Source of the DNA: Halobacterium litoreum
GTDB lineage: Archaea; Halobacteriota; Halobacteria; Halobacteriales; Halobacteriaceae
Direction of reading: 5' to 3'
Length of the DNA: 64,000 bases
Assembly: GCF_021233415.1 (NCBI RefSeq)
Contig: NZ_CP089466.1
Location: 2,633,406-2,697,405 of the forward strand
Made by a program: the position numbers and the translations under genes. The number at the start of each line of letters is the position of its first letter. The stretch's first letter is position 1. Under the pieces are notes generated by a model. That model searched no databases. It saw only the letters and a program-made list of their open reading frames with translations, and was not told where the DNA came from. Positions 812 to 63,946 of this stretch are shown here, one piece after another.

Positions 812-1612
812 ATGGTCTACGCGGACCTCCACGTCCACACCGACAACTCCGACGGCACCCTCGCGCTCGACGAGGTGCCCGCCGCCGCCCGCGACGCCGG
901 CGTCTCGGCGGTCGCCATCACCGACCACGACCGCCTCCACCCCGACCTCGACGCGCCCGTCACCGAACGCGGCGGCGTCGACGTCGTCCACGGCATCGAA
1001 CTCCGCGTCGAGGCCGGCGACCAGCGCGTCGACCTCCTCGGCTACGGCGCCCGGCGCACCGACGCGCTCGTCGCCGAGACCGACCGCATCCAGCGCGACC
1101 GCCGCACCCGCGGCGCCCGAATCATCGAGAACGTCGAAACAACCCTCGGCGTCGACCTCGGCCTCGAATCCCGCGAGGGACTGGGTCGCCCGCACATCGC
1201 GCGCGCCGTCGTCGACCACCCCGAAACCGACTACGACGAACTCGGCGCCGTCTTCGACGACCTCATCGCCGACGACGGCCCGTGTTTCGTCGCGCGCGAC
1301 GTCCCCGACTTCGAGACGGGCGTCGAACTGCTCTCGGAGGCCTGCGGTCTCGTCGGCCTCGCCCACCCGCTGCGCTACGACGACCCGCAGACCGCCCTCG
1401 GCCTCTGTCGCGACCTCGACGCCGTCGAACGCCACTACCCCTACGACCGACCCGTCGGCGACGACCCCGCCGAGGACGGCGACGTGCTCGTGGACGCCGC
1501 CATCGACGAGTTCGACCTGCTCGCCACCGGCGGGAGCGACGCCCACGAGCGCACCCTCGGGAAGGCCGGCCTCTCCCGCGTCGCCTACGAGACCGTCCGC
1601 ATGCACCTGTAG
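812..1612 (+). CDS. PHP-domain metal-dependent phosphoesterase
   Basis: The 266-residue product starts MVYADLHVHTDNSDGTL, the classic N-terminal PHP motif I with metal-binding His7 and His9. Motif II follows as AITDHDRL (residues 36-43), a later HGIELRV carries a metal-binding Glu, and GGSDAH near the C-terminus is the last metal motif. Stand-alone PHP proteins of this size are usually phosphoesterases of the YciV/TrpH type that hydrolyse phosphate esters or short nucleotides. An in-frame ATG at 788 exists, but family members begin at the conserved VYADLHVHT, so 812 was chosen. The true substrate cannot be told from sequence. Confidence 0.85.
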   Translation: MVYADLHVHTDNSDGTLALDEVPAAARDAGVSAVAITDHDRLHPDLDAPVTERGGVDVVHGIELRVEAGDQRVDLLGYGARRTDALVAETDRIQRDRRTRGARIIENVETTLGVDLGLESREGLGRPHIARAVVDHPETDYDELGAVFDDLIADDGPCFVARDVPDFETGVELLSEACGLVGLAHPLRYDDPQTALGLCRDLDAVERHYPYDRPVGDDPAEDGDVLVDAAIDEFDLLATGGSDAHERTLGKAGLSRVAYETVRMHL

Positions 1613-1658
1613 TGCCCCTGCCGTGAGGTTCAGGTGGCCTCGGCCCCAAACCCCGTGC

Positions 1659-1820
1659 ATGCAGTGTCACTACTGCGACCGGAGTGCGGACCTCACCGTC
1701 GAGAAAGGCGGCATCAAGGTCGGCGTCTGCGAGGACCACTTCCAGGACCAACTCGACGAACTCTCCGACAGCGAGACCCTCCAGCGACTCCGGGAGCAGC
1801 TCGAAATCGAGCGGTCGTAA
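1659..1820 (+). CDS. Small zinc-finger-like haloarchaeal protein (DUF6757-like)
   Basis: Encodes 53 residues: MQCHYCDRSADLTVEKGGIK, then VGVCEDHF and an acidic helical C-terminus. The CHYC pair plus a later CEDH form a Cx2C...CxxH arrangement likely to bind zinc. The pattern is a known small uncharacterised haloarchaeal family (DUF6757 as I remember it). The open frame extends upstream to 1623, but the zinc motif at the very N-terminus marks 1659 as the start. It sits 46 bases after the PHP gene on the same strand and could be cotranscribed. Confidence 0.7.
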   Translation: MQCHYCDRSADLTVEKGGIKVGVCEDHFQDQLDELSDSETLQRLREQLEIERS

Positions 1821-1832
1821 CGCCCTCTCCTT

Positions 1833-2598
<766 letters not shown>

Positions 2599-2692
2599 AG
2601 GACACGCTAAATCTCCGAAGCGCAGACTCCACGACACCACTGTTCCATAGCCATCCCGCAGGCTTATGCGCGCGCCGACGCTTCCCTCTGGT

Positions 2693-3160
2693 ATGCGAAA
2701 GGTACGCCTCGACGACCTCGACTCCCGGATGGGGCCGGCGGACCGGAGCCTCCCCCTGACGGACGCGCTGGGCGCCGCCGACGCCGCGTTGAACTTCTAC
2801 GAGCTCGCGCCGGGCGACAGTTTCGCGTACGGCTTCCACGCCCACGAGAAACAGGAGGAGATATTCTACGTGCTCGACGGCACCGTGACGTTCCGCACGC
2901 TCGACGAGGACGTCGAAGTCAGCGCGGGCGAACTCGTGCGCTTCGGACCGGGCGAGTTCCAGCGCGGCGTGAACCGCGGCGAGGAACGCGTGCGAGCGCT
3001 CGCAATCGGCGCGCCACAGGAGTCCGGGGACACCGAGATACTCCGGGCGTGCGAGGACTGCGGCGAGGAGACGCTGCACGCGCTCGAACTCGCGGACGAC
3101 CGCTCCGAGATTCGCGCCGTCTGCGAGGAGTGTGGCGCGGTCACGGGACGCTTCGAGTAA
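2693..3160 (+). CDS. Cupin protein with C-terminal zinc-ribbon-like tail
   Basis: The 155-residue protein has a cupin barrel: ELAPGDSFAYGFHAHEKQEE carries the HxH metal ligands and the following Glu, and FGPGEFQRGVNRGEE is the second cupin motif. The C-terminal 45 residues contain CEDCGEET and later CEECG, a probable zinc ribbon. An upstream ATG at 2666 is in frame, but the start at MRKVRLDDLD fits better because an AT-containing promoter region precedes it. Its TAA stop overlaps the ATG of the next gene (TAATG), so the two are translationally coupled. Substrate unknown. Confidence 0.8.
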   Translation: MRKVRLDDLDSRMGPADRSLPLTDALGAADAALNFYELAPGDSFAYGFHAHEKQEEIFYVLDGTVTFRTLDEDVEVSAGELVRFGPGEFQRGVNRGEERVRALAIGAPQESGDTEILRACEDCGEETLHALELADDRSEIRAVCEECGAVTGRFE

Positions 3161-3528
3161 TGACCCATCCGCCCCGCCTCGTGTTCGACGACGACTGCGG
3201 CTTCTGCACGTGGTGTGCGAACTTCGCGGCGCGCCACGGCGACGTGGAGACGGTGGGCTTCACCGACCTCACGCCGGACCAACTCGCGCGCCTCCCCGAC
3301 GACTACGAGAACTGCGCCCACCTCCTCACCGACGACGCCGTCTACTCGTGTGGCGAGGCCGTCGAGCGCACGCTCGTCCACGACTTCCCCGCGCTCGGGC
3401 CCGCCTTCTCGATTCTCCGAGCCGTCCCGGGGTACGCGTGGCTCCGCGAGAAACTGTACCGCGCGGGCGCCGACCGTCGCGTCTTGCTCGGGAAAATAGC
3501 GCGCGACGACCCGCCCGCGAGAAATTAA
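3160..3528 (+). CDS. DCC-family thiol-disulfide oxidoreductase (DUF393)
   Basis: The 122-residue protein opens with PRLVFDDDCGFCTWCANF, the DxDCxxC signature of the DCC family (Cys13, Cys16 and an extra Cys19). The family is predicted to have a thioredoxin-like fold and to act in thiol-disulfide exchange, but is barely characterised. The rest, ending YRAGADRRVLLGKIARDD, follows the family pattern. The start codon overlaps the stop of the cupin gene, so both probably form one transcript. It overlaps the convergent phosphotransferase-like gene by four bases at its 3' end. Confidence 0.8.
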   Translation: MTHPPRLVFDDDCGFCTWCANFAARHGDVETVGFTDLTPDQLARLPDDYENCAHLLTDDAVYSCGEAVERTLVHDFPALGPAFSILRAVPGYAWLREKLYRAGADRRVLLGKIARDDPPARN

Positions 3529-9637: not shown

Positions 9638-12415
9638 TCAGGCGCTCGCGACGGTCTGCAGAATCTCGGGCGCGTCGTCGAGTGCGTCGTCTAACTGCTC
9701 GGCGTCCGGGCCGCCGCCCTGCGCGAAGTCCGCGGGACCGCCGCCGCCGCCGCCGACCCGCCCCGCGAGTTCGCCGACGACCTCGCCCGCGTTCACGGGC
9801 ACGCCGTCGGGCACCGCGACGACGAACTGCGCGCCGTCCGCGCCGGAGCCAACGACCGCGATTTTGCCGCTCTCTACGAGCGCGTTCGCCGTCGCGCGGA
9901 GTTCCTCCATGTCGCCGTCGACGCGCTGAATCACGGCCGTCGTGCCGGCGACCTCGACCTCCTCGCCGGCGCCGCCGCCCGACGCCCGGGCCTCCGCGAG
10001 TTGCTCTTTCAAGTCCTCTATCTGCTTGCCGCGTTCCTTCCACTCGGTGAAGAAGCGCTCGGCCGTCTCCGGCACCTCGTCGGGCGCCACGTCGAACGTG
10101 TCGGCGGCCGCGAGCAGGTCGTCTTCCGTCTCTTGGACGTGCTCGATGGCGGCCGCGCCCGCGGCGAACGTCAGGCGCTCGACGCCGTCCTGCACGCGCT
10201 CGGCGTTCAGAATCTTGATGGTCCCGATTTCGCCGGTGCGGTCGACGTGCGTCCCGCCGCAGGCCTGCACGTCCTCCGCGACGTGGACGAGGCGGATGTT
10301 CTCGCCCGTCGGAATCCCGCCCTGGTAGAGGTCGAAGCCGTACTTCTCCTCGGCCTCGTGGCGGTGGGGCCACTCGCGCTGGACCGACGTGTTCTCCGTG
10401 ACGATGTCGTTGGCGACGCGCTCGATTTCCTTGACCGTCTCCCGGTCGAGGCGCTCGAAGTGCGCGATGTCGATGCGCGAGGAGTCGGTGCCCTTCTGGG
10501 CGCCCGCCTGCCGCACGTGCTCGCCGAGCACTTCGCGGGCGGCGTGGACGACTACGTGCGTCGCGGTGTGGTGGGCCATCAGGCGGCGGCGGCGCTCCAC
10601 GTCGATTTGGCCGCGCACGAACTCGCCTTTCCCGGGGTTCTCGTCGGTCCGGTGGAGGACGACGCCGTCGCGTTCCTGCACGTCGAACACGTCGACGGCG
10701 TGGTCGTCGGTCGAGAGCGTGCCGTGGTCGGCGGGCTGGCCGCCGCCCTCGGGGTAGAACATCGTCTGGTCGAGCACCACGTCGTAGACGGTGTCGTCGC
10801 CCTCCTCGCGCTCGAACACGTCGAGCACGACGGCCTCGAACTCGGAGCGGTAGGCGTCGTCGTAGTACAGCGCCTCCGTCTCCGGGAGGTCCGCGAGGCG
10901 CTCGTCGGCCTCCTCGCCGCCCGCCGCGCCGCCCGCCTCGTCGTGACGGTCGGCGACCAGCGAGTAGAAGTCGTCGGGGGCGTCCACCTCGGCGCCCACC
11001 TCGCTCGCGATGTCCGCGACCATGTCCGGCTGGATGCCGTGGGAGTCGTACAACTCGATGAGTTCCTCGGTCGGGATGGGTTCGCCGCGCTCGGCGTACT
11101 CCTCGGCGAGCTGTTCGACCTTCCGGCCGCCGCGGTCGAGGGTCTCGGCGTACTTCTCGACCTCGCTTCTGACGATGCTCCGGATGGTGTCGCGGTTCGT
11201 GTAGCCGAGGCGCTCGGCCTGCATGTCCACGAGTTCGTCCATCGGCACGTCCGCGCCGACGCTGTCCACGAGGCGCTTGGTGCGCCGCAGGACCATCCGC
11301 GCGAGGTAGCCCGTGCCGACGTTCGACGGCACGATGCCGTCCCCGAACATGTACGCGAGGACGCGGCTGTGGTCCGCGATGGCGTAGATGTCCTCGAGAG
11401 GTTCGACCAACTCCGAGAGGTAGTCGGTGTCGACGTCGAGTTTGTCCGCGATGTTGTCGCGGGCCGCCTGCACGTCCTCGACCTCGTCGATGTCGAGGTT
11501 GCCAGAGAGTTTCGCCGCGCGGTGGACGAGTTGCTGCTCTTCGTCGGTGTGCTCGATGCCCGCGCGCTCCTTGAGGAAGTCGATGGTCTCGGGGTAGATG
11601 GCCTCGTAGACGGTCGCGGTGCCCTGGCTCATCCACGTCCAGCGCTCCACGCCGTAGCCGGTGTCGACGACCCGGCGGTCCATCCGCGAGTACGTGTTCC
11701 CGTCTTTCATCTCGTACTCGCCGTCGGGGTCCAGTTCGAGGCTCATGAAGACGAGCGTCGCCAGTTCGAGGCCCTTGTAGATGACCTCGAAGGCGGGGCC
11801 GGCGTTCCCGCCGCCGACCCACGGGTCCTCGATGAACGTCACTTCGTCCAGCGGCACGCCGACGGACTCCAGGAGCCCCTCGCAGTATTCGACCGTCTGG
11901 TCCTTCCAGTAGACTTCGCCCTCGTAGGCGTAGTCGGTGCCGTCGTCGGCGTTGAACGCGTGGTGGCCGAGCATCTCGAAGGCCATCGTGTGCCGGCCCG
12001 TCTTCCCGACGTTGTCGATGTCCTGCATCCGGATGCAGGGCTGGCTCACGACGAGGGGGTTCGCGGGCGGCGGCGACTCGCCGCTCGTGACGTGGGGCTG
12101 GAAGTCGTAAATCGACGCCTGCGTCAGGAGCACGTCGTCGCGCCACCGGTTCGCGGCGACCGGGTACGGGTCGATGCGCTCGTGGCCCTCGGTCTCGAAG
12201 TACGAGAGCATCTCCTCGCGCATCTCCGTGAGGCTGTATTCCTCGCCGAAGCCGGGGTCGTCGATGAACTGGTAGTCCTCGCAGGGCGGTTCGCCGCAGG
12301 TCTCGCGGTCGGGGTCGCGCGTCCAGAAGTGCGCACCGCACTCGGTGCACTCCCGGCGCTCGAATCCTTCCTCCTCGAAGTAATCGAGGCGGTACTCCGA
12401 TTCGAGGTCGCTCAT
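9638..12415 (-). CDS. alaS: Alanyl-tRNA synthetase
   Basis: The 925-residue protein is an archaeal-type AlaRS, which charges tRNA-Ala. The N-terminus ([26 protein letters not shown]) carries the zinc-binding cysteines typical of archaeal enzymes. The class II catalytic core includes [19 protein letters not shown] and an FEMLGHHAF segment. The editing domain has [20 protein letters not shown] and the downstream [13 protein letters not shown]. The C-terminal domain has a Gly-rich run (about residue 890) before PADFAQGGG, as in other AlaRS. A minus-strand TATA-like TTTTACT near 12,441-12,447 lies about 30 bases upstream of the ATG. Confidence 0.97.
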
Positions 12416-54312: not shown

Positions 54313-54402
54313 ATGAAGTATAGCCGACTGACGTTTGCACCCCACTCCTTGTACGAATTGCTCTCCCACATGAGACTCGCTGCAACTCTTAAAGATGTGT
54401 AA
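54313..54402 (+). CDS. Possible 29-residue leader ORF ahead of queF
   Basis: ATG at 54,313 opens a frame reading MKYSRLTFAPHSLYELLSHM and then RLAATLKDV, with a TAA at 54,400-54,402. The stop is one base before an ATG at 54,404 that can start queF (TAACATG), which would allow coupled reinitiation. The peptide is basic, unlike most haloarchaeal proteins. It may be a translated leader with no independent role, or chance. Confidence 0.25.
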   Translation: MKYSRLTFAPHSLYELLSHMRLAATLKDV

Positions 54403-54403
54403 C

Positions 54404-54832
54404 ATGGGCGAGCCAGCACCGGAACGCTTGGAGGTTATCGAGAATGAGTACCCGAATCGGCATACAAAATTAGAGCTGGTCGCGCCAGAATTCACTTGTC
54501 TCTGTCCGGAGAAACCATCCCAGCCGGACTTCGCCACGTTCGTCATCGAATACGTCCCGGACGAGTACATTGTCGAGCTGAAGGCGCTGAAACTGTACTT
54601 AACCTCCTACCGCGACGTGGAGATCTACCACGAGCCCGCAACCAATCGCATCCTCGACGACCTGGTCGATGCCTGCTCGCCTAGGTGGATGCGAATCACC
54701 GGGAAATTCAACACACGTGGCGGGATCACCACCGACGTCACAGTCGAATACGGGGAGCTAGACGAAGCCGAAATCCCCGAAAGCCAGTCAACGCGAACGG
54801 AGGACCTGACTCGAATCCAATCTGAACAATGA
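54404..54832 (+). CDS. queF: QueF-type NADPH-dependent preQ0 reductase
   Basis: The 142-residue protein aligns with bacterial type I QueF, which reduces preQ0 to preQ1 (7-aminomethyl-7-deazaguanine). Key elements are APEFTCLCPEKPSQPDFATF, with the catalytic Cys of LCP and Asp of QPD, the NADPH-binding ELKALKLYL (the QueF motif E-S/L-K-S/A-h-K), YHE and GKFNTRGGITTDV. One residue is inserted between Cys and Asp relative to Bacillus QueF. Archaea normally convert preQ0 to archaeosine without QueF reductase activity, and archaeal QueF-like amidinotransferases lack the NADPH motif. ATG at 54,404 is used; 54,395 is an alternative. Its stop overlaps the next start (ATGA). Confidence 0.9.
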   Translation: MGEPAPERLEVIENEYPNRHTKLELVAPEFTCLCPEKPSQPDFATFVIEYVPDEYIVELKALKLYLTSYRDVEIYHEPATNRILDDLVDACSPRWMRITGKFNTRGGITTDVTVEYGELDEAEIPESQSTRTEDLTRIQSEQ

Positions 54833-55875
54833 GTCTCTCGTTCTACGCAGCCATGAGCGTCTCCCCCAGCTCGATGCGGAAGACGTTCGCCCGACTGCAG
54901 GACGGTTATGGGTCATTGGAACCGCTGCAAAACGTCATGTTCACCCCCATCTCACAGGGGCCAGAAACCCACGGGGAAATCGAGGCGCTCACGAAACGAT
55001 TCGACCTCAACGTGATGTTCGACTCCGGCGGGTACGAGGTGCAAGTCGGAAACAAGGAATTCGACGACCTGTACTCGTACCTGATTGACTTCTATGGAGA
55101 GAACAACTGGGGGCATCGCTACGTCCTCCCCGATAACGTCCCGCTCACGGACGACCCTCCAAACGTTGTCGATCGGAAGGTGGACGAGACACTGAGCGCG
55201 ACCGAGATGTGCTTCCGCCGGCTTTCTGAAGACCGGCAATCACGAGCGGTCGCTGTCGTCCAAGGACATACGACAGACCAACTCTACCGATGCCTCAACA
55301 AGTACAGCCAACTCGATGGACTCCAGCACGTCGGGTTCGGGAGCTTTGGAACCGGTGGTGTGAGCAACGGCGTCAATATGCTCACCACCGAAGCCTTCCA
55401 TAACCTCTCGACAGTCGTTGACCGCGCACACGAAGAAGGCCTCTCGGTTCACGCCTTCGGTGTCGGCGGTCCAACCAGCCTCCCACTCTTACATGAAGCC
55501 GGCGTCGATTCCTTCGACACGACGAGCTGGATGCGGTCCAGCGGCTACGGGAACGTGTTCTTCCCGTTCAAAAGCCGGTTCAACGCCTCCCACCGGAAGA
55601 ACCGCAGCGGGAACGTCCTCACAGCGAGCGAGCTCCCCCATCTTCGAGCGGAAACCGGCCACAAGTGCCCGTTCTGTGAGAACATCAGAAACCTCCGGAA
55701 CAACCGCTGGGACCGCGTCATTCATAATCTGATCGTCATCCACGAGATGACGAATCAGATGACGGAGATGACCACGGAAGAGATCATCGGCGCGATGGAC
55801 CCCAACTCGCGGTACCGGAAACGGCTGGAAGATGTCCAAAAAACCCGTCCTGTCCGGGGGCCGATCTCAACATGA
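54829..55875 (+). CDS. dpdA: DpdA-like TGT paralogue (7-deazaguanine DNA transglycosylase)
   Basis: The 348-residue protein has the TIM-barrel landmarks of tRNA-guanine transglycosylase: VMFDSGGYEVQVG (Asp65, equal to the SDSGG Asp), HVGFGSFGTGGVSNG (substrate pocket), and LLHEAGVDSFDTTSW, which corresponds to the GVDMFDC segment that carries the nucleophilic Asp. A C-terminal HKCPFCENIRNLRNNRWDRV with CxxC and distal His resembles the zinc site. It lacks the PUA and other RNA-binding parts of archaeal TGT (about 500-650 residues), and its motifs match the DpdA family that places 7-deazaguanine bases in DNA. It follows queF by an ATGA overlap. Confidence 0.85.
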   Translation: MSLSFYAAMSVSPSSMRKTFARLQDGYGSLEPLQNVMFTPISQGPETHGEIEALTKRFDLNVMFDSGGYEVQVGNKEFDDLYSYLIDFYGENNWGHRYVLPDNVPLTDDPPNVVDRKVDETLSATEMCFRRLSEDRQSRAVAVVQGHTTDQLYRCLNKYSQLDGLQHVGFGSFGTGGVSNGVNMLTTEAFHNLSTVVDRAHEEGLSVHAFGVGGPTSLPLLHEAGVDSFDTTSWMRSSGYGNVFFPFKSRFNASHRKNRSGNVLTASELPHLRAETGHKCPFCENIRNLRNNRWDRVIHNLIVIHEMTNQMTEMTTEEIIGAMDPNSRYRKRLEDVQKTRPVRGPIST

Positions 55876-56717
55876 GCAACAAGCTCCACATCGTCGGGAG
55901 TGCAGGCCGACCAGAAGCTATCAAGCACTACCTCGACCTCATCGATCGACGTGATTACACCTCCGTTGAGGACGCGATGAGCGATGCCTACCACGAATTT
56001 GGGCTGAGCCACCCCAGCAAGCCGGGCCAGCTCATCAACACCAAGGACATGACAACCACGCTGGCCCGGCTTGGACTCGTGCACGAGGAAGACCGGCAGG
56101 AACTCACCGACTTCGGCCGCGATCTTGTGGATGTCCTCATTCATAACGAACAGCGGTTCTACGACCTGCTGCATTTCGTGTACGCGTCCGCCTATCATCG
56201 GAACCCAAGCCCGGAGCGGTTCATCTCGTGGTCGTACTACCAGATTACGCGAGAGTACTGTAAACGGGCTCCAGTCGATTTCAACGATGCCAAACAGGAA
56301 GTCGTCGAGGCCGTGCTGCAGTCGGCGGAGACCGAAACTGCGCCGGGGTTCGATGATCACGGTACACTCAGCACGAAGAGCATCAACAACTATCGGCGGT
56401 TCATCGACGAGTTGGACCCGCCGGTTCTCCAAGAGGGGCGGTTCGAGCTGCGTGAGTTCGTGCCGTCAGAGCTGGTTCTGGCGGCGATTGATCTCCTGTA
56501 CCGGACTGACTTCGCCGGGTCACGGGAGTATGGTGGGTTGATGAGTCTGAGTGGTGTTCCTGCCGAGGCTCTACAGACGCTGTGTTTGGTGCAGGAAGAC
56601 GTTCTCTCAGATGTTGTTGAACAGGCTGTGAAAATGGACAGTCGCCTGAGCCTCAAGGCGGACTACACGATGCACGTTCGGTTATCAGAGCCGGTGACCA
56701 TTGATGACCTCGCCTAA
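55872..56717 (+). CDS. Unrecognised operon protein with winged-helix-like N-terminus
   Basis: The 281-residue protein is not recognised. It is mostly helical. Residues 10-90 (VEDAMSDAYHEFGLSHPSKP, TLARLGLVHEEDRQELTDFG) look like a winged-helix unit followed by FYDLLHFVYASAYHRNPSPE, and the rest (ELVLAAIDLLYRTDFAGSRE) is also helical. It could be the counterpart of BrxA or a system-specific DNA-binding subunit, as it sits directly between dpdA (ATGA overlap) and the P-loop genes. No catalytic motif is visible. It may be the specificity or adaptor subunit of the system; this is inference from position only. Confidence 0.8.
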   Translation: MSNKLHIVGSAGRPEAIKHYLDLIDRRDYTSVEDAMSDAYHEFGLSHPSKPGQLINTKDMTTTLARLGLVHEEDRQELTDFGRDLVDVLIHNEQRFYDLLHFVYASAYHRNPSPERFISWSYYQITREYCKRAPVDFNDAKQEVVEAVLQSAETETAPGFDDHGTLSTKSINNYRRFIDELDPPVLQEGRFELREFVPSELVLAAIDLLYRTDFAGSREYGGLMSLSGVPAEALQTLCLVQEDVLSDVVEQAVKMDSRLSLKADYTMHVRLSEPVTIDDLA

Positions 56718-57171
56718 TGCCCTACTCCTCCAGCGGATGAACGCCCTCAAAGACGCTGCGTCTGTCGAACGGCTCTCTGCTGCCCAGCAGGAGGCGATGG
56801 ACCAGATTCGGAAGCATCGGGACGACGATGCCCGGTTCATAAACCTGTACGGTCCGGAAGAAGCCGGGAAAACGTTCCTGTGCTGGGCGCTCCGGGAAGC
56901 GGAGGACTGGGAGTACCATCCGCAGATGCCGGAGTCAGCTGATGAACCAGTGGTCATCTACGACCACGGGGAGGCAGACCGGATGGCGACACGGAATCTC
57001 CGGAACCATGCCAGCATCAACGGCCTTGCGACCATCGTCTACGTGACGCACAGGCCGGCAGAAGAGGTTTTTCCGAGAGTCGAACTGGCCCCTGGAGAGG
57101 ACCACTACCAGACTGTCCGAGCCAACTGGGAAGCACTCGGACTGTCCGTCGAACACGCACCCACTATGTAA
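56704..57171 (+). CDS. Small P-loop ATPase, BrxF-like
   Basis: The 155-residue protein has a Walker A INLYGPEEAGKTFLCWAL (Gly50-Thr57) and a possible Walker B (PVVIYDHGEADRMATR), then IVYVTHRPAEEVFPRVELAP. Its size and its place directly upstream of a large BrxC-like ATPase match BrxF of type 3 BREX. The start overlaps the previous gene by 14 bases; an alternative ATG at 56,734 would shorten the N-terminus. Only four bases separate it from the next gene. The BrxF assignment rests on size, motif and position, not full-length similarity. Confidence 0.75.
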   Translation: MTSPNALLLQRMNALKDAASVERLSAAQQEAMDQIRKHRDDDARFINLYGPEEAGKTFLCWALREAEDWEYHPQMPESADEPVVIYDHGEADRMATRNLRNHASINGLATIVYVTHRPAEEVFPRVELAPGEDHYQTVRANWEALGLSVEHAPTM

Positions 57172-57175
57172 ACCA

Positions 57176-60100
57176 ATGAGCGGAAAACAACTCACTGACA
57201 GCGTTGGCGAGGTGTTTGACCTCGTTCGGAAGAGCGAGGGAATCATCTCAACGTTCAGCGCAAACGAAGTCGCAGAGGAACCACAAACAGTCGAAGCCGA
57301 ATACGAGCGATTCGCGGACACCCACATCTCACTCGGGGACACCGACGGGTTCGAAGACGAGGTCTATGAATCGCTCGTGGAAAGCGAGAAACCGACGAAA
57401 GGCTACTTGTACGGGCCGTTCGGGTACGGGAAGACCAGTACGTCAGTCAGCATTTGGAAGGAGATCACGGACAACGACGTCATCGCTGTGCCCCCGTTCA
57501 CCCTCACGTCGTTCACCGCCATTATGCGCGCGACCCACGGGTGGATGCGGTACGAGCTGAACAACAAAGCCCCCGGGTACGTCGATGAGCTAGAGGAAAT
57601 CAAGGACCGATACATCAACCAAGAGCTGGAGGCGTACGCCGAAGAGAAGAAGGACGACCACCAGTTTCAGGACAAGGACCAGCTCGTGGAGATGTTCCGT
57701 GAGATGGAGCGTACCAACGACCTGGACCTCAGTATCCAGGCCGACACCCTCATCGACTTCTTCAGCGAGTGCACTGAACTCGCCCTGAAGGCGGACTTCG
57801 ACGGTCTACTCATCCTCGGCGACGAGTTCCAGCAGTACTTCAAGAGCGCGGATAATCGCCAGGACGCCGAATCTAGATTCCGGAACCTCGTGTTCGGACT
57901 GCAGTCCGGGGCGAAGGTGCAGGACGAGTTCGGGCTGTTCATCTCGATGCCGGAGCAGACGAAGAGCACTCTCGATGCGCACGCGGGTGACGTGCTGAAC
58001 CGGTTAGAACGCGATAACCTGACGCTCAACCTCCAGAACGTCTACGGGCAGGACTTCCCTGCCGAACTCTGGAACCGGTACGCACAGGGATACAGCTTCG
58101 AGGATCGGCAACACGATGTCATCAGTCAATCCGCATTGAAGGCGATTGGCGAGATTTGCTCTCGTGAAGACCTCAGCAACGGTCCTCGGACGGTCATTGA
58201 CATTTTCCGCATCGCAATCAAGCAGTACCAGACCGCCGGAGAGTGCTTCACGGTCCTTGACCTGGCCGACGCATTCTACGAAGGTGAAGTCCGCTACCAG
58301 GGGTCGTCAACGAAGATTCAGTCGGCCATCCAGGACGCCCTCGATCACTCCAGCGTTGACTCCGAGAAGAAATCACAGTTCATCCGCATCTGTGCCGTTT
58401 TCCCGGAAGAAGGCATCCCGGACGAGGTCGTTGAGTCGTGGAACCTTGGGGAGGCGAAAGAAGAGCTCTCGAAGGCCCTGCACGGAGAGGTCATCAAGGT
58501 CGTCGCAGAAGGCTACACACTGATTGATGTCACGGCTACTGAAGGCCCGGATGACATCGTTCAGCAGCTCATCCGTGATTTCTGGCGACAGTACGACACA
58601 GAGCACGTCAACGCCGCCTATGCGATGGAGGCGTTCGCCAACGACCTCGTCTGCGGTGAGATATTCGAACCCATCCGTGGGAAGCTCCGGGGGTGGGGCG
58701 TCGGAGACGGCCTGAATAACTACGAGCCGACGCTGTACAAGCGCAGCGACCTCCAAGGAACGTTCAACACGCGGTACCCGAAGCGGACTGCCAGCATCAC
58801 AGTCACCGACCCTGATCACGACGACGAGATCGGGAGTCACGATGACCTCGGGGCCGGGTACGGTACACCCGACATCGCGTTCAACTTCATCTTAGGGTGG
58901 GAGAGCGAGGAAAACCCGGTCACGCCCCGCATCGAGCGCGAATCCGAGCGTGAATACACGTTCGTCGTCAACGGCCGGCAGACGTTCGACTCGCTTCCTG
59001 AGAATCTCGATTTCCTTCGGGACGCGATGGACCCGAATGCAGTCACTCCGTTCCTGATGCTCGCGCTCGTTGCGTATCTAGAGCAGGATGACACGGAGAT
59101 GGACGCCCAGGAGGAGAACCGCGTCGAACACTTCCGGGATAAACTCCTCAACGTCGCGCTGAAGTCCCTGTTCGGCGAGGAACTCATCGACAACGCACCC
59201 GTCAAACTCAGTCGAGCGGGAAAGCGAGCAGTTGAGGGGGTGTTCACTGAGGCGATGCAGGAAGTCTACCCCGAGTACCACACCATCATCACCAGCACGC
59301 AGTACGAGAAGATGATGGATGAGTACGTGGACTTCCTTGACGCCCTCGAAACCACGTCAAAGCGCCGCGGTTCAAACCCCATCGAAGGGACGAAATCAGA
59401 TGTTGCATCGCTATTCGGCCTGAAGAACACTTCTCCCTTCGACGGCCGGATCAGTCAGCACTACAGCGACATCCTCACTGTCAAAAATAACGAAAAGGAC
59501 GGCTTCGTCGTCTCCGCGGAGCTCCACCCCCTCGAAGAGGAGATCATCAGTCGCTTAGAACATAGCGAAGACGAGCAAATCCCACAATCCACGGTCGATG
59601 AGATTGCGGTGGAGCACGGATACCGTGAGGAAGAGGTTGACGTCATCCTCACCTTCCTCCAGCACCGGGGTCTCGTCGAAGAGGTGGACTCCGGAGAAAC
59701 GCTTGCGCTCCTCGAAACCGATGTCAGCATCGAGGACGTCGAGGAAACGGTAACGGAGTGCCAGAACCTCCACGATGCAATCACGTCTCTTGATGCTGAA
59801 TTCATTCCAGACGGAGTTACGGCTGAGTTAGACTCAATTGAGGAAGACCTGGAGGATGCTCACCCTGATGACGGGGAGACGCTGGAGTCCCTCCAGGTGA
59901 CGGCTCGACACGTCCGAGATCGCCTCGACCAGCAGGTCCAATCCCTGCACCAGCGGTATCTCTCCGAATGCAAGGACGTCAAGAAGGAGGCCAACCGGGA
60001 ACGTCGTCGAATCAACCCTGACCACCTCGACGACCCAATCGAAGGCAGCGTGGAGTTCGTCGGGGTGCTGGACGACGCTCGCCGAGAACTGCGGGCAGAG

Positions 60101-61180
60101 TATCAGGATGTCAAACAGCGAATCGGGGAAGTGAGCGATGACTTGGAAGCTGCTGTCGCCCAACACGACGAACCGACTATAGAGAACACGGAAACGCTCC
60201 ACCAGAAGGCGAGAGAGGCACGCGATGAACTTGACGAGATCCGGGGCGAAGTCTCCGAGAGCGATGACGGAGAGAGTCTTGAGGATCTCGCAGACGCCGT
60301 GGAACGCTGGGAAATATTCGCCGACCAGGTAGCGAACGTCCGGCGGAAGATCATGGACTACGCTCGGACGTTCGAAGAGGAGGTGGACGAAGCGGAAGAT
60401 ATCGAGGATTTCATCGGACAGGTGTCCGAGCACTTCACAGACGATTGGGAAGCCGCTCTCCAGAACCGCGAAGGATTCGAAGAACAACTCAACCGCATCG
60501 AGGAATCCTACGAAGCCCGGCGTGAAAACCGCCGCGAGGTGTTCCAGAAGAAACTGGAAATTCTGAAGAGCGTGCTCAGTGAGGCCACTGGCGGTTCCTC
60601 CCGAGGGCTCCGTCGGGCTCAGTATCCGTTCATTGAGAACCCTGATGAGGCACGCCGAGGGTTAGTCGATGACTTCGAGGAGGAATACAGGACCCAAGTG
60701 ATCGAGAAGGCTGAGGAACAGCTGACGAAGGCGTTCCAAGAGATCGAGTACGCGCGCATCGTCGGTGTAGACGCCGGAGTCGAGGCTGACCCCGACGAGG
60801 TCGGCGAACGGATCGAACAGGCGGAAGCCAAAGTTTCTAACTTGAAATCTGCACTCTCCCGGTTCACCTTCACAGACATTCAGGAGGGGAACGAACTCTG
60901 CTCCGAGCTGGAAAGCAAGGGGCGTACAGTGTTGGACAGCGCGGAGGAACTCCGGGAGCAGTCCGGCGAGTTCCGCCGTGAAACGGAGCCCGACGATGAG
61001 GCCGTCCAAGAGTTGCTTGAGCGAATCAATGACCACCGTCAGGTGGACTTCAAGGAACTGCTCATGGAGTACCACGACGATGGCGAAAATCTCTCGCCGG
61101 ACGACCTCCTCACCCGGATGAACCAGCTGTTCAAGCACAACCAGATCGACATTGAGATCTCCCGCAGACGGGGGCGATAA
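57176..61180 (+). CDS. Large BrxC/PglY-like P-loop ATPase with coiled coil
   Basis: The 1334-residue protein has a Walker A GYLYGPFGYGKTSTSVSI (Gly80-Thr87), a Walker B-like DGLLILGDEFQQYF (Asp216, Glu217), and an arginine-containing downstream segment (LNRLERDNLTLNLQ). The second half is a long coiled coil (about 860-1290, with runs such as EEQLNRIEESYEARRENRRE). This architecture (N-terminal AAA-like ATPase, winged-helix-like middle, very long helical tail) is that of BREX BrxC/PglY and of related large defence ATPases. It would form the motor or scaffold of the system. No nuclease motif is visible. Confidence 0.82.
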   Translation: MSGKQLTDSVGEVFDLVRKSEGIISTFSANEVAEEPQTVEAEYERFADTHISLGDTDGFEDEVYESLVESEKPTKGYLYGPFGYGKTSTSVSIWKEITDNDVIAVPPFTLTSFTAIMRATHGWMRYELNNKAPGYVDELEEIKDRYINQELEAYAEEKKDDHQFQDKDQLVEMFREMERTNDLDLSIQADTLIDFFSECTELALKADFDGLLILGDEFQQYFKSADNRQDAESRFRNLVFGLQSGAKVQDEFGLFISMPEQTKSTLDAHAGDVLNRLERDNLTLNLQNVYGQDFPAELWNRYAQGYSFEDRQHDVISQSALKAIGEICSREDLSNGPRTVIDIFRIAIKQYQTAGECFTVLDLADAFYEGEVRYQGSSTKIQSAIQDALDHSSVDSEKKSQFIRICAVFPEEGIPDEVVESWNLGEAKEELSKALHGEVIKVVAEGYTLIDVTATEGPDDIVQQLIRDFWRQYDTEHVNAAYAMEAFANDLVCGEIFEPIRGKLRGWGVGDGLNNYEPTLYKRSDLQGTFNTRYPKRTASITVTDPDHDDEIGSHDDLGAGYGTPDIAFNFILGWESEENPVTPRIERESEREYTFVVNGRQTFDSLPENLDFLRDAMDPNAVTPFLMLALVAYLEQDDTEMDAQEENRVEHFRDKLLNVALKSLFGEELIDNAPVKLSRAGKRAVEGVFTEAMQEVYPEYHTIITSTQYEKMMDEYVDFLDALETTSKRRGSNPIEGTKSDVASLFGLKNTSPFDGRISQHYSDILTVKNNEKDGFVVSAELHPLEEEIISRLEHSEDEQIPQSTVDEIAVEHGYREEEVDVILTFLQHRGLVEEVDSGETLALLETDVSIEDVEETVTECQNLHDAITSLDAEFIPDGVTAELDSIEEDLEDAHPDDGETLESLQVTARHVRDRLDQQVQSLHQRYLSECKDVKKEANRERRRINPDHLDDPIEGSVEFVGVLDDARRELRAEYQDVKQRIGEVSDDLEAAVAQHDEPTIENTETLHQKAREARDELDEIRGEVSESDDGESLEDLADAVERWEIFADQVANVRRKIMDYARTFEEEVDEAEDIEDFIGQVSEHFTDDWEAALQNREGFEEQLNRIEESYEARRENRREVFQKKLEILKSVLSEATGGSSRGLRRAQYPFIENPDEARRGLVDDFEEEYRTQVIEKAEEQLTKAFQEIEYARIVGVDAGVEADPDEVGERIEQAEAKVSNLKSALSRFTFTDIQEGNELCSELESKGRTVLDSAEELREQSGEFRRETEPDDEAVQELLERINDHRQVDFKELLMEYHDDGENLSPDDLLTRMNQLFKHNQIDIEISRRRGR

Positions 61181-61182
61181 CC

Positions 61183-62301
61183 ATGCCAACGTTCACGGAG
61201 ATCGCTGAACAGGCACAAGCCACCCCCGTCGTTTGCCCACTCCCAAGACTGGCGAGTTTCTACCTCGATGACCTCGCCGTCTACACGTCACTCGACAACT
61301 TCCACTACGACCTTTACAATCCAGATTACCGATTCGACCGAGATGTGGTCATTAGTGCGGATGACCATCATCCGGACTACACGCACCTGAGCTGTGACGA
61401 GGAGCCGGTCACGCCCCGACTGAACGAGGTCGTGGACTGGAGCAATCGAGAACACCACGACCGGCTACGGCGGGAGCTGCTGAAACAATCCAGTCTCAAA
61501 AACCACATCGTTCACAGCGTGACTGGAGAAACCATCGTCGTGCTGCTCATCGTTGACGGCCTTTCCTACGAGTCACTCCGCACGACGCAACTCCCTGCCC
61601 AACCCGTGGTCGTTGACGGAATGACGACCACCGAACCCGGCTTCAAGCGGATTATTTACGGGGACGACAACGTCTCGCTGTACAGCGAGTTACTCCACGA
61701 GAAGAACTTCACCAACAAATTCGGTTTCACGTATTGGGACCGAGGACAGGAGGACCTCTCGACGGACCTCCATGCTGCGATGGGGAACGACGTGTACCGC
61801 ATCCGGGATTTCTCCGACGCGGTGGAGACTCTCTCAGATGCCGCCCCGTTCACGAACCGGACATACGTCCAGATCACACGAATGGGGTTGGACCAGGACT
61901 CGCACAACAAGAAAGAAGAGCCAGACCATGACGCGGTCGTTGAGAACATCATCGAAGATGTCCGCGACCTCGAAGCGGAACTCTCCAAACAGGCAGAGAG
62001 CTACCGGATTTTCGCAACGTCAGACCACGGCATTCTCTGGCGTACCCAGCTTCCGGATAGCCCGGAGGTGATTCTGGACGACTACAAACACCAACCACGG
62101 TACGTACAGGGCCGCGAAAAAGTCCCGCACAGTATGACGTACACCTCCGACGGTGAGATCGTCTCCGGGCTGGCATACCCATATCTCGCCCGGGATCTGA
62201 AACACACTGAGTGGGGCGTTCACGGCGGGTTCTCGTACTATGAATCCGTCGTCCCGCTCGTAGAACTCAGCAGCAACTCCAACGACGGTGATTCAGCATG
62301 A
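61183..62301 (+). CDS. Short PglZ-like alkaline-phosphatase-fold protein
   Basis: The 372-residue protein has the metal-ligand pattern of the alkaline phosphatase superfamily: VVLLIVDGLSYESLRT (Asp125), a Thr-rich nucleophile region GMTTTEPGF (Thr148-Thr150), ITRMGLDQDSHNK (Asp237, His241), ATSDHGILW (Asp281, His282) and WGVHGGFSYYESVVPL (His). PglZ of BREX systems shares this fold but is usually 700-900 residues, so this is a short version. The intact metal set suggests an active hydrolase, possibly a nuclease or phosphatase. Two bases separate it from the ATPase gene; its end overlaps herA by ATGA. Confidence 0.82.
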   Translation: MPTFTEIAEQAQATPVVCPLPRLASFYLDDLAVYTSLDNFHYDLYNPDYRFDRDVVISADDHHPDYTHLSCDEEPVTPRLNEVVDWSNREHHDRLRRELLKQSSLKNHIVHSVTGETIVVLLIVDGLSYESLRTTQLPAQPVVVDGMTTTEPGFKRIIYGDDNVSLYSELLHEKNFTNKFGFTYWDRGQEDLSTDLHAAMGNDVYRIRDFSDAVETLSDAAPFTNRTYVQITRMGLDQDSHNKKEEPDHDAVVENIIEDVRDLEAELSKQAESYRIFATSDHGILWRTQLPDSPEVILDDYKHQPRYVQGREKVPHSMTYTSDGEIVSGLAYPYLARDLKHTEWGVHGGFSYYESVVPLVELSSNSNDGDSA

Positions 62302-63461
62302 ACTTGTTCATCGGCGAAAACCTCGACGAGCACGGCGACACGTACATTGACGCATCATCAGCCCGCTCCATCCTCGCGTGTGGCAAACGCGGGACGGGCA
62401 AGAGCTACACGATGGGAAGCATCGTGGAAGAGATTCACACGGAAACCGACGACATCGTTCCGCTCGTCATCGACCCGATGGGGATTTATTGGACGATGGC
62501 CGAGGAAAACGACCGTCAACGCGACCTCCTCTGGGACTGGGGAATGTCCGAAGAGGGCTTCCCTGTGAATCTACTCGTCCCGGGGAATCCCGGCGAGCGA
62601 TTCGGTGATGAAGTCCTCCGGGAGCTTGAGGGGCGCGGCATCGACGTGAACCCGCTTCTGCTGAACCCCTCGGACATGACCCCAGACGGCTGGTGTGACC
62701 TCTTCGACCTGAACATCAACAAGCCGATGGGCATCGCTCTGTACCGGTCCGTTCGAGAGCTCAACGAAGAGGAGTCGGAATTCTACTTGGACGACATCAT
62801 CCAGAAGGTAGAGCGTGACGGCGGGTCCTCCGACCGAACCAAGGAAGCCCTCCTGAACCGGCTAGAGATGGCGAAAGACTGGGGCATTTTCGCCGACCAA
62901 TACCAGGATCTCTGGCGGACCTTCGATGAGAACAGAATAAACGTCCTGGACATGAGCGTCATCGATCCCGGGCAGTACGGGCTTCGAAACCTGGTCGTTG
63001 AAGTCCTGGGGAAAGAGCTCTTCCGGCAGCGTCAGGAGGCCCGCCGCCGTGAGGAGATGGGGCTTTCGGTGGAGATCCCCAAGGTGTGGTTGTTCATTGA
63101 TGAAGCCCACAACTTCGTGCCAAGCGGGTCGTCGTCACTTGCTAAGGACACCATTATTCGGTGGGTGAAAGAAGGGCGACAGCCCGGCCTATCCATCGTT
63201 GTCGCAACCCAGCAACCGTCAGCAATCGATAGCGATGTGCTGTCGCAATGCGACATCATTCTCTGCCACAAAATCACGACCAAAGAGGACATCCAGTCCC
63301 TTGACAAGCTCAGTCAGGACTACATGGGGAGTGATCTGAAAACCTACGTCCGGCAGATCGACAACGTCGGGGAGGTCGTCTATGTAGACGACGACGAAGA
63401 GACTGTGGAGATGGTGAAGATGCGGCCACGGCAGAGTAAGCACGGTGGCGGTGAAGCATGA
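62298..63461 (+). CDS. HerA-type DNA-translocating ATPase
   Basis: The 387-residue protein has Walker A SILACGKRGTGKSYTMG (Gly29-Ser36), the DUF87/HerA segment VPLVIDPMGIYWTM, Walker B KVWLFIDEAHNFVPSG, and the post-Walker-B region GLSIVVATQQPSAIDSDVLS typical of HerA/FtsK hexameric translocases. HerA-type pumps in defence systems drive DNA past a nuclease or modification enzyme. No NurA-type nuclease is nearby, which makes the PglZ-like protein a candidate effector. Starts four bases inside the preceding gene and its stop overlaps the GNAT start. Confidence 0.9.
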   Translation: MNLFIGENLDEHGDTYIDASSARSILACGKRGTGKSYTMGSIVEEIHTETDDIVPLVIDPMGIYWTMAEENDRQRDLLWDWGMSEEGFPVNLLVPGNPGERFGDEVLRELEGRGIDVNPLLLNPSDMTPDGWCDLFDLNINKPMGIALYRSVRELNEEESEFYLDDIIQKVERDGGSSDRTKEALLNRLEMAKDWGIFADQYQDLWRTFDENRINVLDMSVIDPGQYGLRNLVVEVLGKELFRQRQEARRREEMGLSVEIPKVWLFIDEAHNFVPSGSSSLAKDTIIRWVKEGRQPGLSIVVATQQPSAIDSDVLSQCDIILCHKITTKEDIQSLDKLSQDYMGSDLKTYVRQIDNVGEVVYVDDDEETVEMVKMRPRQSKHGGGEA

Positions 63462-63946
63462 GCAGGGGTAAGAAGGTGAAGCTGATGAAGGTCTCCAGCG
63501 CTACGTCACCCGACGACGTCGAACGCATCAATGCGTTCTTCAATTCAACCGAAATCAAAACCGACCTTCACTGGTTCACCTACCGAGACACACTTGACCG
63601 AGCATTCGAGCGCGAAGACCGACAACTCCTCTACGTAGACAACGATGACGGCGAGATCATCGGGGCTCTCATGGTGTGGTGCCAATCACGCGTCCTCGAC
63701 CCCGGCGAGGCGCAAATCCGCCTCGTAGCCGTTTCACCAGATAACCGCGATGAAGGGCTCGGGCGACTACTCTGCGAATGTGCGGAGGCCTTTGCCCGCC
63801 GACAATCACAGGATCGAATGATCGCCGATGTCGTTGCGTCAGCCCCGGCTGTTGAGTTCTGGAAATCAATCGGGTACGACCCCCTCGAAGAGTGGGAAAC
63901 CCGCGGCGGACGGTCGATGCTTACCGTTCAGAAACCCCTCGACTGA
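63458..63946 (+). CDS. GNAT N-acetyltransferase, last gene of the island operon
   Basis: The 162-residue protein has the acetyl-CoA motif IRLVAVSPDNRDEGLGRLLC (R/QxxGxG/A-like) and a C-terminal SAPAVEFWKSIGYDPLEEWE typical of GNAT enzymes. It starts in the last bases of herA (ATGA), so it belongs to the operon. QueF would give preQ1, which carries a free primary amine, and a GNAT could acylate it; this is a hypothesis. It could also act on a protein or toxin-like target. The 54 bases after the stop contain no complete gene. Confidence 0.82.
   Translation: MSRGKKVKLMKVSSATSPDDVERINAFFNSTEIKTDLHWFTYRDTLDRAFEREDRQLLYVDNDDGEIIGALMVWCQSRVLDPGEAQIRLVAVSPDNRDEGLGRLLCECAEAFARRQSQDRMIADVVASAPAVEFWKSIGYDPLEEWETRGGRSMLTVQKPLD

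Follow-up and report, generated by a model that had tools for sequence, protein, structure and literature searches.

The final genes of the 64,000-nucleotide stretch of Halobacterium litoreum DNA analysed here (hereafter the window) form an eight-gene operon that is a QueF-carrying archaeal variant of the BREX-Related Capture (BRC) system. An earlier note on this DNA had taken the gene mixture for an undescribed system; that idea was rejected, as BRC was described in Nucleic Acids Research (NAR) in January 2026 by Rakesh and Krishnan (PMC12839542). The informative part is QueF, the reductase that converts preQ0 to preQ1, which is unnamed in the main text of that paper. The gene set and its recurrence, the retained residues of the TGT-fold guanine transglycosylase (hereafter TGT) and of the P-loop ATPases, the association of QueF with the haloarchaeal locus, and that of the GNAT acyltransferase with TGT are established. 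Read together, these sequences point, with a probability of about 0.45, to a restriction-modification-like system in which preQ1 made by QueF would be built into host DNA by TGT and then acylated by the GNAT to serve as a self-mark.

Relationship to BRC and other known systems

As given in its main text, BRC is found in 45 taxa and comprises PglZ, a DUF6079 ATPase that bears BrxC domains, a STAND NTPase, DUF4007 (a BrxA-like DNA-binding protein), HerA, GNAT, and TGT (PMC12839542). A HerA/FtsK translocase is present in every BRC locus, the PglZ is short, has an inactive Swi2/Snf2-like part, and lacks the extra domains of BREX PglZ, and GNAT and TGT are each confined to a subset of loci; protection against viruses and plasmids is a prediction (PMC12839542). 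The base proposed there is preQ0, with acyl and 7-deazaguanine derivatives suggested as self-marks in general terms. Seven of the eight window proteins correspond to this list (PglZ, a BrxC-like ATPase, a small NTPase, a DUF4007-type protein, HerA, GNAT, and TGT), the BrxC-like ATPase and the small NTPase only tentatively to its DUF6079 and STAND classes, and the window PglZ is likewise short, with a catalytic core (372 amino acids (aa)). The eighth, QueF, is absent from that main text, as is preQ1. The present loci differ in that QueF is tied to those of haloarchaea and that a Dnd-type module replaces TGT and GNAT in one. Literature searches outside preprints, most subscription journals, and supplements found no other paper on this gene set.

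Other haloarchaea carry the gene set too, as do bacteria; given this recurrence, which the earlier note had proposed to look for, it is not a chance assembly. Full loci are defined here by a complete chassis, i.e., the third and fourth genes plus BrxC-like ATPase, PglZ, and HerA, and number 21, ten of them haloarchaeal; HerA adjoins PglZ in all of them. Truncated or fragmentary loci were left out of this set (L015, L016, L018, L021, L025, L026, L043, L082, L083, and the split pair L087/L088).

Other known systems come close to the operon in part. BREX type 1 has a BrxC-like ATPase and PglZ in common with it, but the operon has a short PglZ and HerA and lacks the PglX methyltransferase, for which reason a BREX subtype was rejected. 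Pfam, PADLOC, and NCBIfam found no methyltransferase (PglX/BrxX or other adenine methyltransferase) among the eight operon proteins, so that the description in the earlier note, a BREX-like ATPase/PglZ/HerA set without PglX plus a 7-deazaguanine branch, stands. Dpd systems (DpdA-K) likewise have a TGT-fold enzyme expected to put 7-deazaguanine in DNA. However, the window has other partner genes, with no DpdB, DpdC, or other Dpd partner among the eight proteins in the same searches, and its TGT scores 26.1 bits against the DpdA equivalog NF041059 (cut-off 200). Accordingly, a Dpd system was rejected, and the equivalog score does not support the earlier DpdA-like label; Pfam DpdA is matched by one of 20 TGT relatives (1e-4). 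Phosphorothioation systems (Ssp/Dnd) differ in that the window operon has no sulfur-modification gene. Finally, the viral dPreQ1 pathways of Halovirus HVTV-1 and Streptococcus phage Dp-1 share QueF-dependent preQ1 in DNA, but the viral genes come without a HerA/PglZ chassis (PMC6884629).

QueF and its tie to the haloarchaeal locus

The window QueF scores 148 bits against TIGR03139 (QueF-II; cut-off 86.9) and 118 bits against PF14489. It carries Cys and Asp within CLCP..QPDFA, which we take to be the active site, and ELKALKLY, presumably the NADPH-binding-type motif. Its identity to the viral enzymes is 43% (phage Dp-1) and 32% (HVTV-1); the DNA of both viruses carries dPreQ1 (PMC6884629). QueF and QueF-L are hard to separate by sequence (PMC6884629).

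QueF was counted only above the Pfam family cut-off; of 24 haloarchaeal genomes with any match, 13 fell below it and were not counted. Among 391 genomes of the class Halobacteria, 8 (in 7 of 86 genera) carry BRC-type PglZ and 11 carry QueF: all eight PglZ carriers versus 3 of the 383 others (Fisher p 1.3e-14, uncorrected for relatedness). In the three genomes without BRC PglZ, no TGT, PglZ, HerA, or BrxC match lies within the 14.6-20 kb around QueF, and two weak GNAT matches surround one of the three. One such QueF may be viral in origin, since its neighbors include a cytosine methyltransferase and a sliding-clamp-like gene (open reading frames (ORFs) read by eye). When carriers found later are included, QueF is present in 10 of 11 haloarchaeal carriers; the exception, G409, has a fragment (L043) with only BrxC and PglZ pieces. 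QueF lies inside the locus in all ten full haloarchaeal loci, before TGT in seven and after the GNAT in three (once on the opposite strand), and one full locus has a second copy. The truncated Methanotrichaceae locus L021 also includes QueF. In two of the ten loci, QueC, QueE, and a QueD-type gene adjoin the operon (L042 by annotation, L031 by homology), which favors the preQ1 reading.

A 91/100 split separates the two QueF sequence types in a tree on which the BRC label needs five changes (4-6 in bootstrap trees). Repeated recruitment of QueF to BRC loci is only likely, as the strictly supported branches force a single change, the bootstrap had yet to converge, and the tree has several long branches. 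For tRNA, archaea use preQ0 and bacteria preQ1 (PMC6884629), and QueF in an archaeal carrier thus has no evident tRNA role. The earlier note had recognized QueF but drew neither its consequence, preQ1 rather than preQ0, nor the link to the GNAT.

Coupling of GNAT to TGT

The window TGT scores 46.9 bits against PF01702 (cut-off 26.3). The window GNAT scores 45.1 bits against PF00583 (cut-off 20.7) and contains RDEGLG, which we take to be the acyl-CoA loop. TGT and GNAT are both present in 19 of the 21 full loci and both missing from two (L020 and L086; p 0.005). In L014, the two are a single fused protein. GNAT domains also occur in 24 of the 120 listed TGT relatives (210 in all), in proteins of 457-518 aa, and the GNAT part comes first in the three fused proteins read. 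The GNAT profile had taken in the fused L014 protein, and GNAT assignments were therefore rechecked by Pfam, which found the domain in 21 of 21 aligned relatives; L014 was confirmed through the TGT alignment, while the 99-aa GNAT of L023, cut by a contig end, was assigned by the GNAT profile only (56 bits). Among excluded loci, a GNAT lies beside HerA in L021, L025, L082, L083, and L088, and none is shown in L016 or L018.

Chemically, preQ1 offers a primary amine open to a GNAT and preQ0 offers none, which suggests that the product of QueF and GNAT is N-acylated preQ1. That TGT and GNAT form the marking module is supported by L086, where the chassis is kept and DndB (PF14072, 109 bits) and a DndA/SspA-like cysteine desulfurase stand in their stead.

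As for viruses, tblastn (1e-3) of the window TGT against a phage collection found no relative. It matches phrog_887 in PHROGs at 39 bits, and a fold comparison with viral models returned A0A823ABE2; this protein is 34% identical to it over 252 columns, and hence a virus may carry a TGT relative.

The chassis proteins

Pfam gave nothing useful for the third protein. The small ATPase has the Walker A motif GPEEAGKT, whose GKT is invariant in 20 of 20 relatives. The earlier BrxF-like label is unsupported, no PADLOC model having matched; in the BRC paper, this class is STAND/BrxB-like, an active STAND NTPase (PMC12839542). The BrxC-like ATPase has the Walker A motif GPFGYGKT and a Walker B pair, D216-E217, invariant in 18 of 18 relatives. 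Its BrxC identity is indirect. Five of these 18 family members match Pfam BrxC_BrxD (best 2.3e-6), the window member not among them, and one matches PADLOC BrxC; the window protein itself matched neither DUF6079 nor BrxC. Its profile found 49 matches among solved structures, by name mostly helical or coiled-coil proteins and no BREX protein.

The PglZ matches are weak: it is recognized by PADLOC at 6e-8 and scores 18.6 bits against PF08665, under the cut-off of 25; the sole match in a whole-genome PF08665 search lies elsewhere in the genome. Residues D125, T150, D281, H282, and H347 are invariant in 44 of 44 sequences, and the profile reaches the solved PglZ structures 9zn5 (5e-4) and 9nv3 (0.005). 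The PglZ alignment found no relative in viral_contigs. HerA scores 52.8 bits against DUF87 (cut-off 23.2), matches HerA (1.8e-23) and mad8 (2e-22) in PADLOC, and has the Walker A motif GKRGTGKS.

Proposed mechanism and alternatives

Under the favored reading, QueF would first reduce preQ0 to preQ1, the TGT-fold enzyme would place preQ1 in host DNA, where N-acylation by the GNAT would complete the self-mark. Site recognition would fall to the SspB-fold protein together with the small ATPase, and unmarked DNA would be intercepted and cut by HerA with the BrxC-like ATPase and PglZ. Self-marking of DNA and attack on unmarked DNA are both predicted from sequence.

A wider proposal, tentative and rather doubtful, is that BRC is a plug-in chassis with exchangeable self-marks. 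Some lineages would use a mark of the phosphorothioation type, and in archaea QueF, TGT, and GNAT would together produce a new DNA base, N-acyl-preQ1 (7-acylaminomethyl-7-deazaguanine). With the acyl cap, the cell could distinguish its mark from the bare preQ1 of haloviruses such as HVTV-1, and the system could then still attack virus DNA hidden behind preQ1.

Several results weigh against the acylated-preQ1 reading. The module swap is seen in one locus only, L086, whose contig stops before further dnd genes. The supply of precursor is a second difficulty. The window genome has weak QueC matches only (25.2 and 21.2 bits) and no PTPS was found in it, so that the organism would need to import preQ0. 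Among the full bacterial loci with TGT and GNAT, seven of nine come from genomes that lack a QueF above the cut-off (the two with it are L023 and L024), and among 396 relatives of L017, QueF occurs in 69 but in none of the 11 PglZ carriers. The bacterial carrier genomes are mostly metagenome bins and often incomplete. Between the bacterial GNATs and that of the window, identity is only 16-25%, which weakens the case for a single shared GNAT function. Finally, the solved structures nearest to the window TGT fold are tRNA-acting TGTs.

The alternative that survives best, although unlikely, is that preQ1 itself is the mark and that the GNAT acylates a protein, e.g., a component of the complex, and thereby regulates the system. 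The QueF tie in archaea fits this, as do the wide range of GNAT substrates (PMC12839542) and the distance between haloarchaeal and bacterial GNATs. Against it, the GNAT is fused to TGT rather than to another component, and it is missing from both full loci that lack TGT.

It is improbable that the mark is dPreQ0, with QueF a local extra. This base is the one proposed for BRC (PMC12839542), and it would suit the bacterial loci without QueF, but QueF is present in every full haloarchaeal locus and preQ0 lacks the amine for the GNAT. Moreover, the nine bacterial TGT+GNAT genomes all have a canonical-type TGT (>360 bits) and six lack a strong QueC, from which we infer that these carriers salvage preQ1 or queuine.

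Slightly less probable again is that TGT acts on RNA, altering tRNA on infection and leaving no mark in DNA. Apart from the structural matches noted above, the evidence runs the other way. The window TGT scores 32 bits against TIGR00432 (cut-off 350) and 20.2 against TIGR00430 (cut-off 306.75), so the profile check that the earlier note had called for does not place it with tRNA-acting enzymes, and the genome has a separate TGT of the archaeal (archaeosine) type. On these grounds, a tRNA-acting TGT was set aside as the leading explanation and kept as a rival. Separate strong TGTs are found in 26 of 26 carrier genomes, the window protein, at 348 aa, is too short to hold the additional C-terminal domains that the archaeal enzyme of 577 residues has, and a Dnd-type module replaces TGT in L086. 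Lastly, it is very improbable that the enzymes tag or damage invading rather than host DNA, as Dnd- and Ssp-type modules mark host DNA and one replaces TGT and GNAT in L086.

If N-acylated preQ1 is indeed the self-mark, the likely chemistry of the BRC mark is acylated preQ1 and not preQ0, which is testable by mass spectrometry in cultured haloarchaea. The use of preQ1 in DNA would in this case be cellular, not viral, and one HerA/PglZ defence complex would pair with unrelated DNA marks. The QueF/GNAT pattern sharpens the prediction of the DNA base in BRC.

Gene layout and genomic context

The eight ORFs, all on the + strand, are tightly packed from 54395 to 63946 (Table 1; positions are those of the whole window), with -4, -4, -17, +4, +2, -4, and -4 bases between successive genes. 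The earlier claim of one tightly coupled operon is thereby confirmed for all eight ORFs (junctions of -17 to +4 bases), except that QueF begins nine bases before the start given there, 54404.

Table 1. Genes of the window operon, and copies of a ~120-aa gene near other haloarchaeal loci (positions within the named locus)
Feature	Position	Strand	Length	Evidence
QueF (preQ0 to preQ1 reductase)	54395..54832	+	145 aa	TIGR03139 QueF-II, PF14489, motifs
TGT/DpdA-fold guanine transglycosylase	54829..55875	+	348 aa	PF01702
SspB/DUF4007-fold protein, likely DNA reader (predicted)	55872..56717	+	281 aa	
Small P-loop ATPase	56701..57171	+	156 aa	Walker A
BrxC/PglY-like ATPase with long coiled-coil part	57176..61180	+	1334 aa	Walker A/B, BrxC_BrxD matches of relatives
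Short PglZ (alkaline-phosphatase-superfamily core), predicted effector	61183..62301	+	372 aa	PADLOC PglZ, invariant residues
HerA/FtsK-type translocase	62298..63461	+	387 aa	DUF87, PADLOC HerA
GNAT acyltransferase	63458..63946	+	162 aa	PF00583
~120-aa gene, L028	16279-16644			
~120-aa gene, L030	5101-5454			
~120-aa gene, L031	5592-5969			
~120-aa gene, L032	16589-17023			
~120-aa gene, L041	4737-5114			
~120-aa gene, L042	5146-5517			
~120-aa gene, L013	20806-21114			

GC content drops at 54 kb, from 0.61-0.72 at 44-54 kb to 0.53-0.59 at 54-64 kb, and none of the 12 other genomes listed for the genus has a PglZ of the operon type; the operon was therefore probably acquired. The end of the window coincides with that of its contig. 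At the opposite contig end is an ORF read as Orc1/Cdc6-like, followed from 2.5 kb in by a PD-(D/E)XK/Cas4-like nuclease. Carriers include Halohasta litchfieldiae, Haloplanus salilacus, and Haloplanus sp. HW8-1. In the last of these, the locus is carried on a 124-kb plasmid, on which QueF is followed by a PD-(D/E)XK nuclease and an ATP-dependent helicase (L121 17866-23297, by annotation).

Other genes accompany some loci. The ~120-aa gene of Table 1 lies near seven of ten full haloarchaeal loci by tblastn, which did not find it in the window, L027, or L029; its L042 copy matches nothing in Pfam or PADLOC. A 754-aa gene stands between GNAT and TGT in L022. In L017, the protein encoded upstream (1020-3263) combines an RNA polymerase alpha-CTD domain with a sigma-70 region 4 domain (Pfam, L017 only); long genes before TGT, similar or similarly placed by reading, occur also in L022, L023, L024, L081, L084, L085, and L087. 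Directly after the BRC operon of L013 (12777-18202) are a 272-aa protein, a 201-aa protein that weakly matches the profile of the small ATPase (19 bits), and an ATPase-like protein of 1328 aa; these three may make up a second, related system. Between PglZ and HerA, L014 has an additional protein (11073-11738) whose N-terminal domain is of the Mrr type (Pfam, L014 only), and a protein resembling it follows PglZ in L015 (3142-3721).

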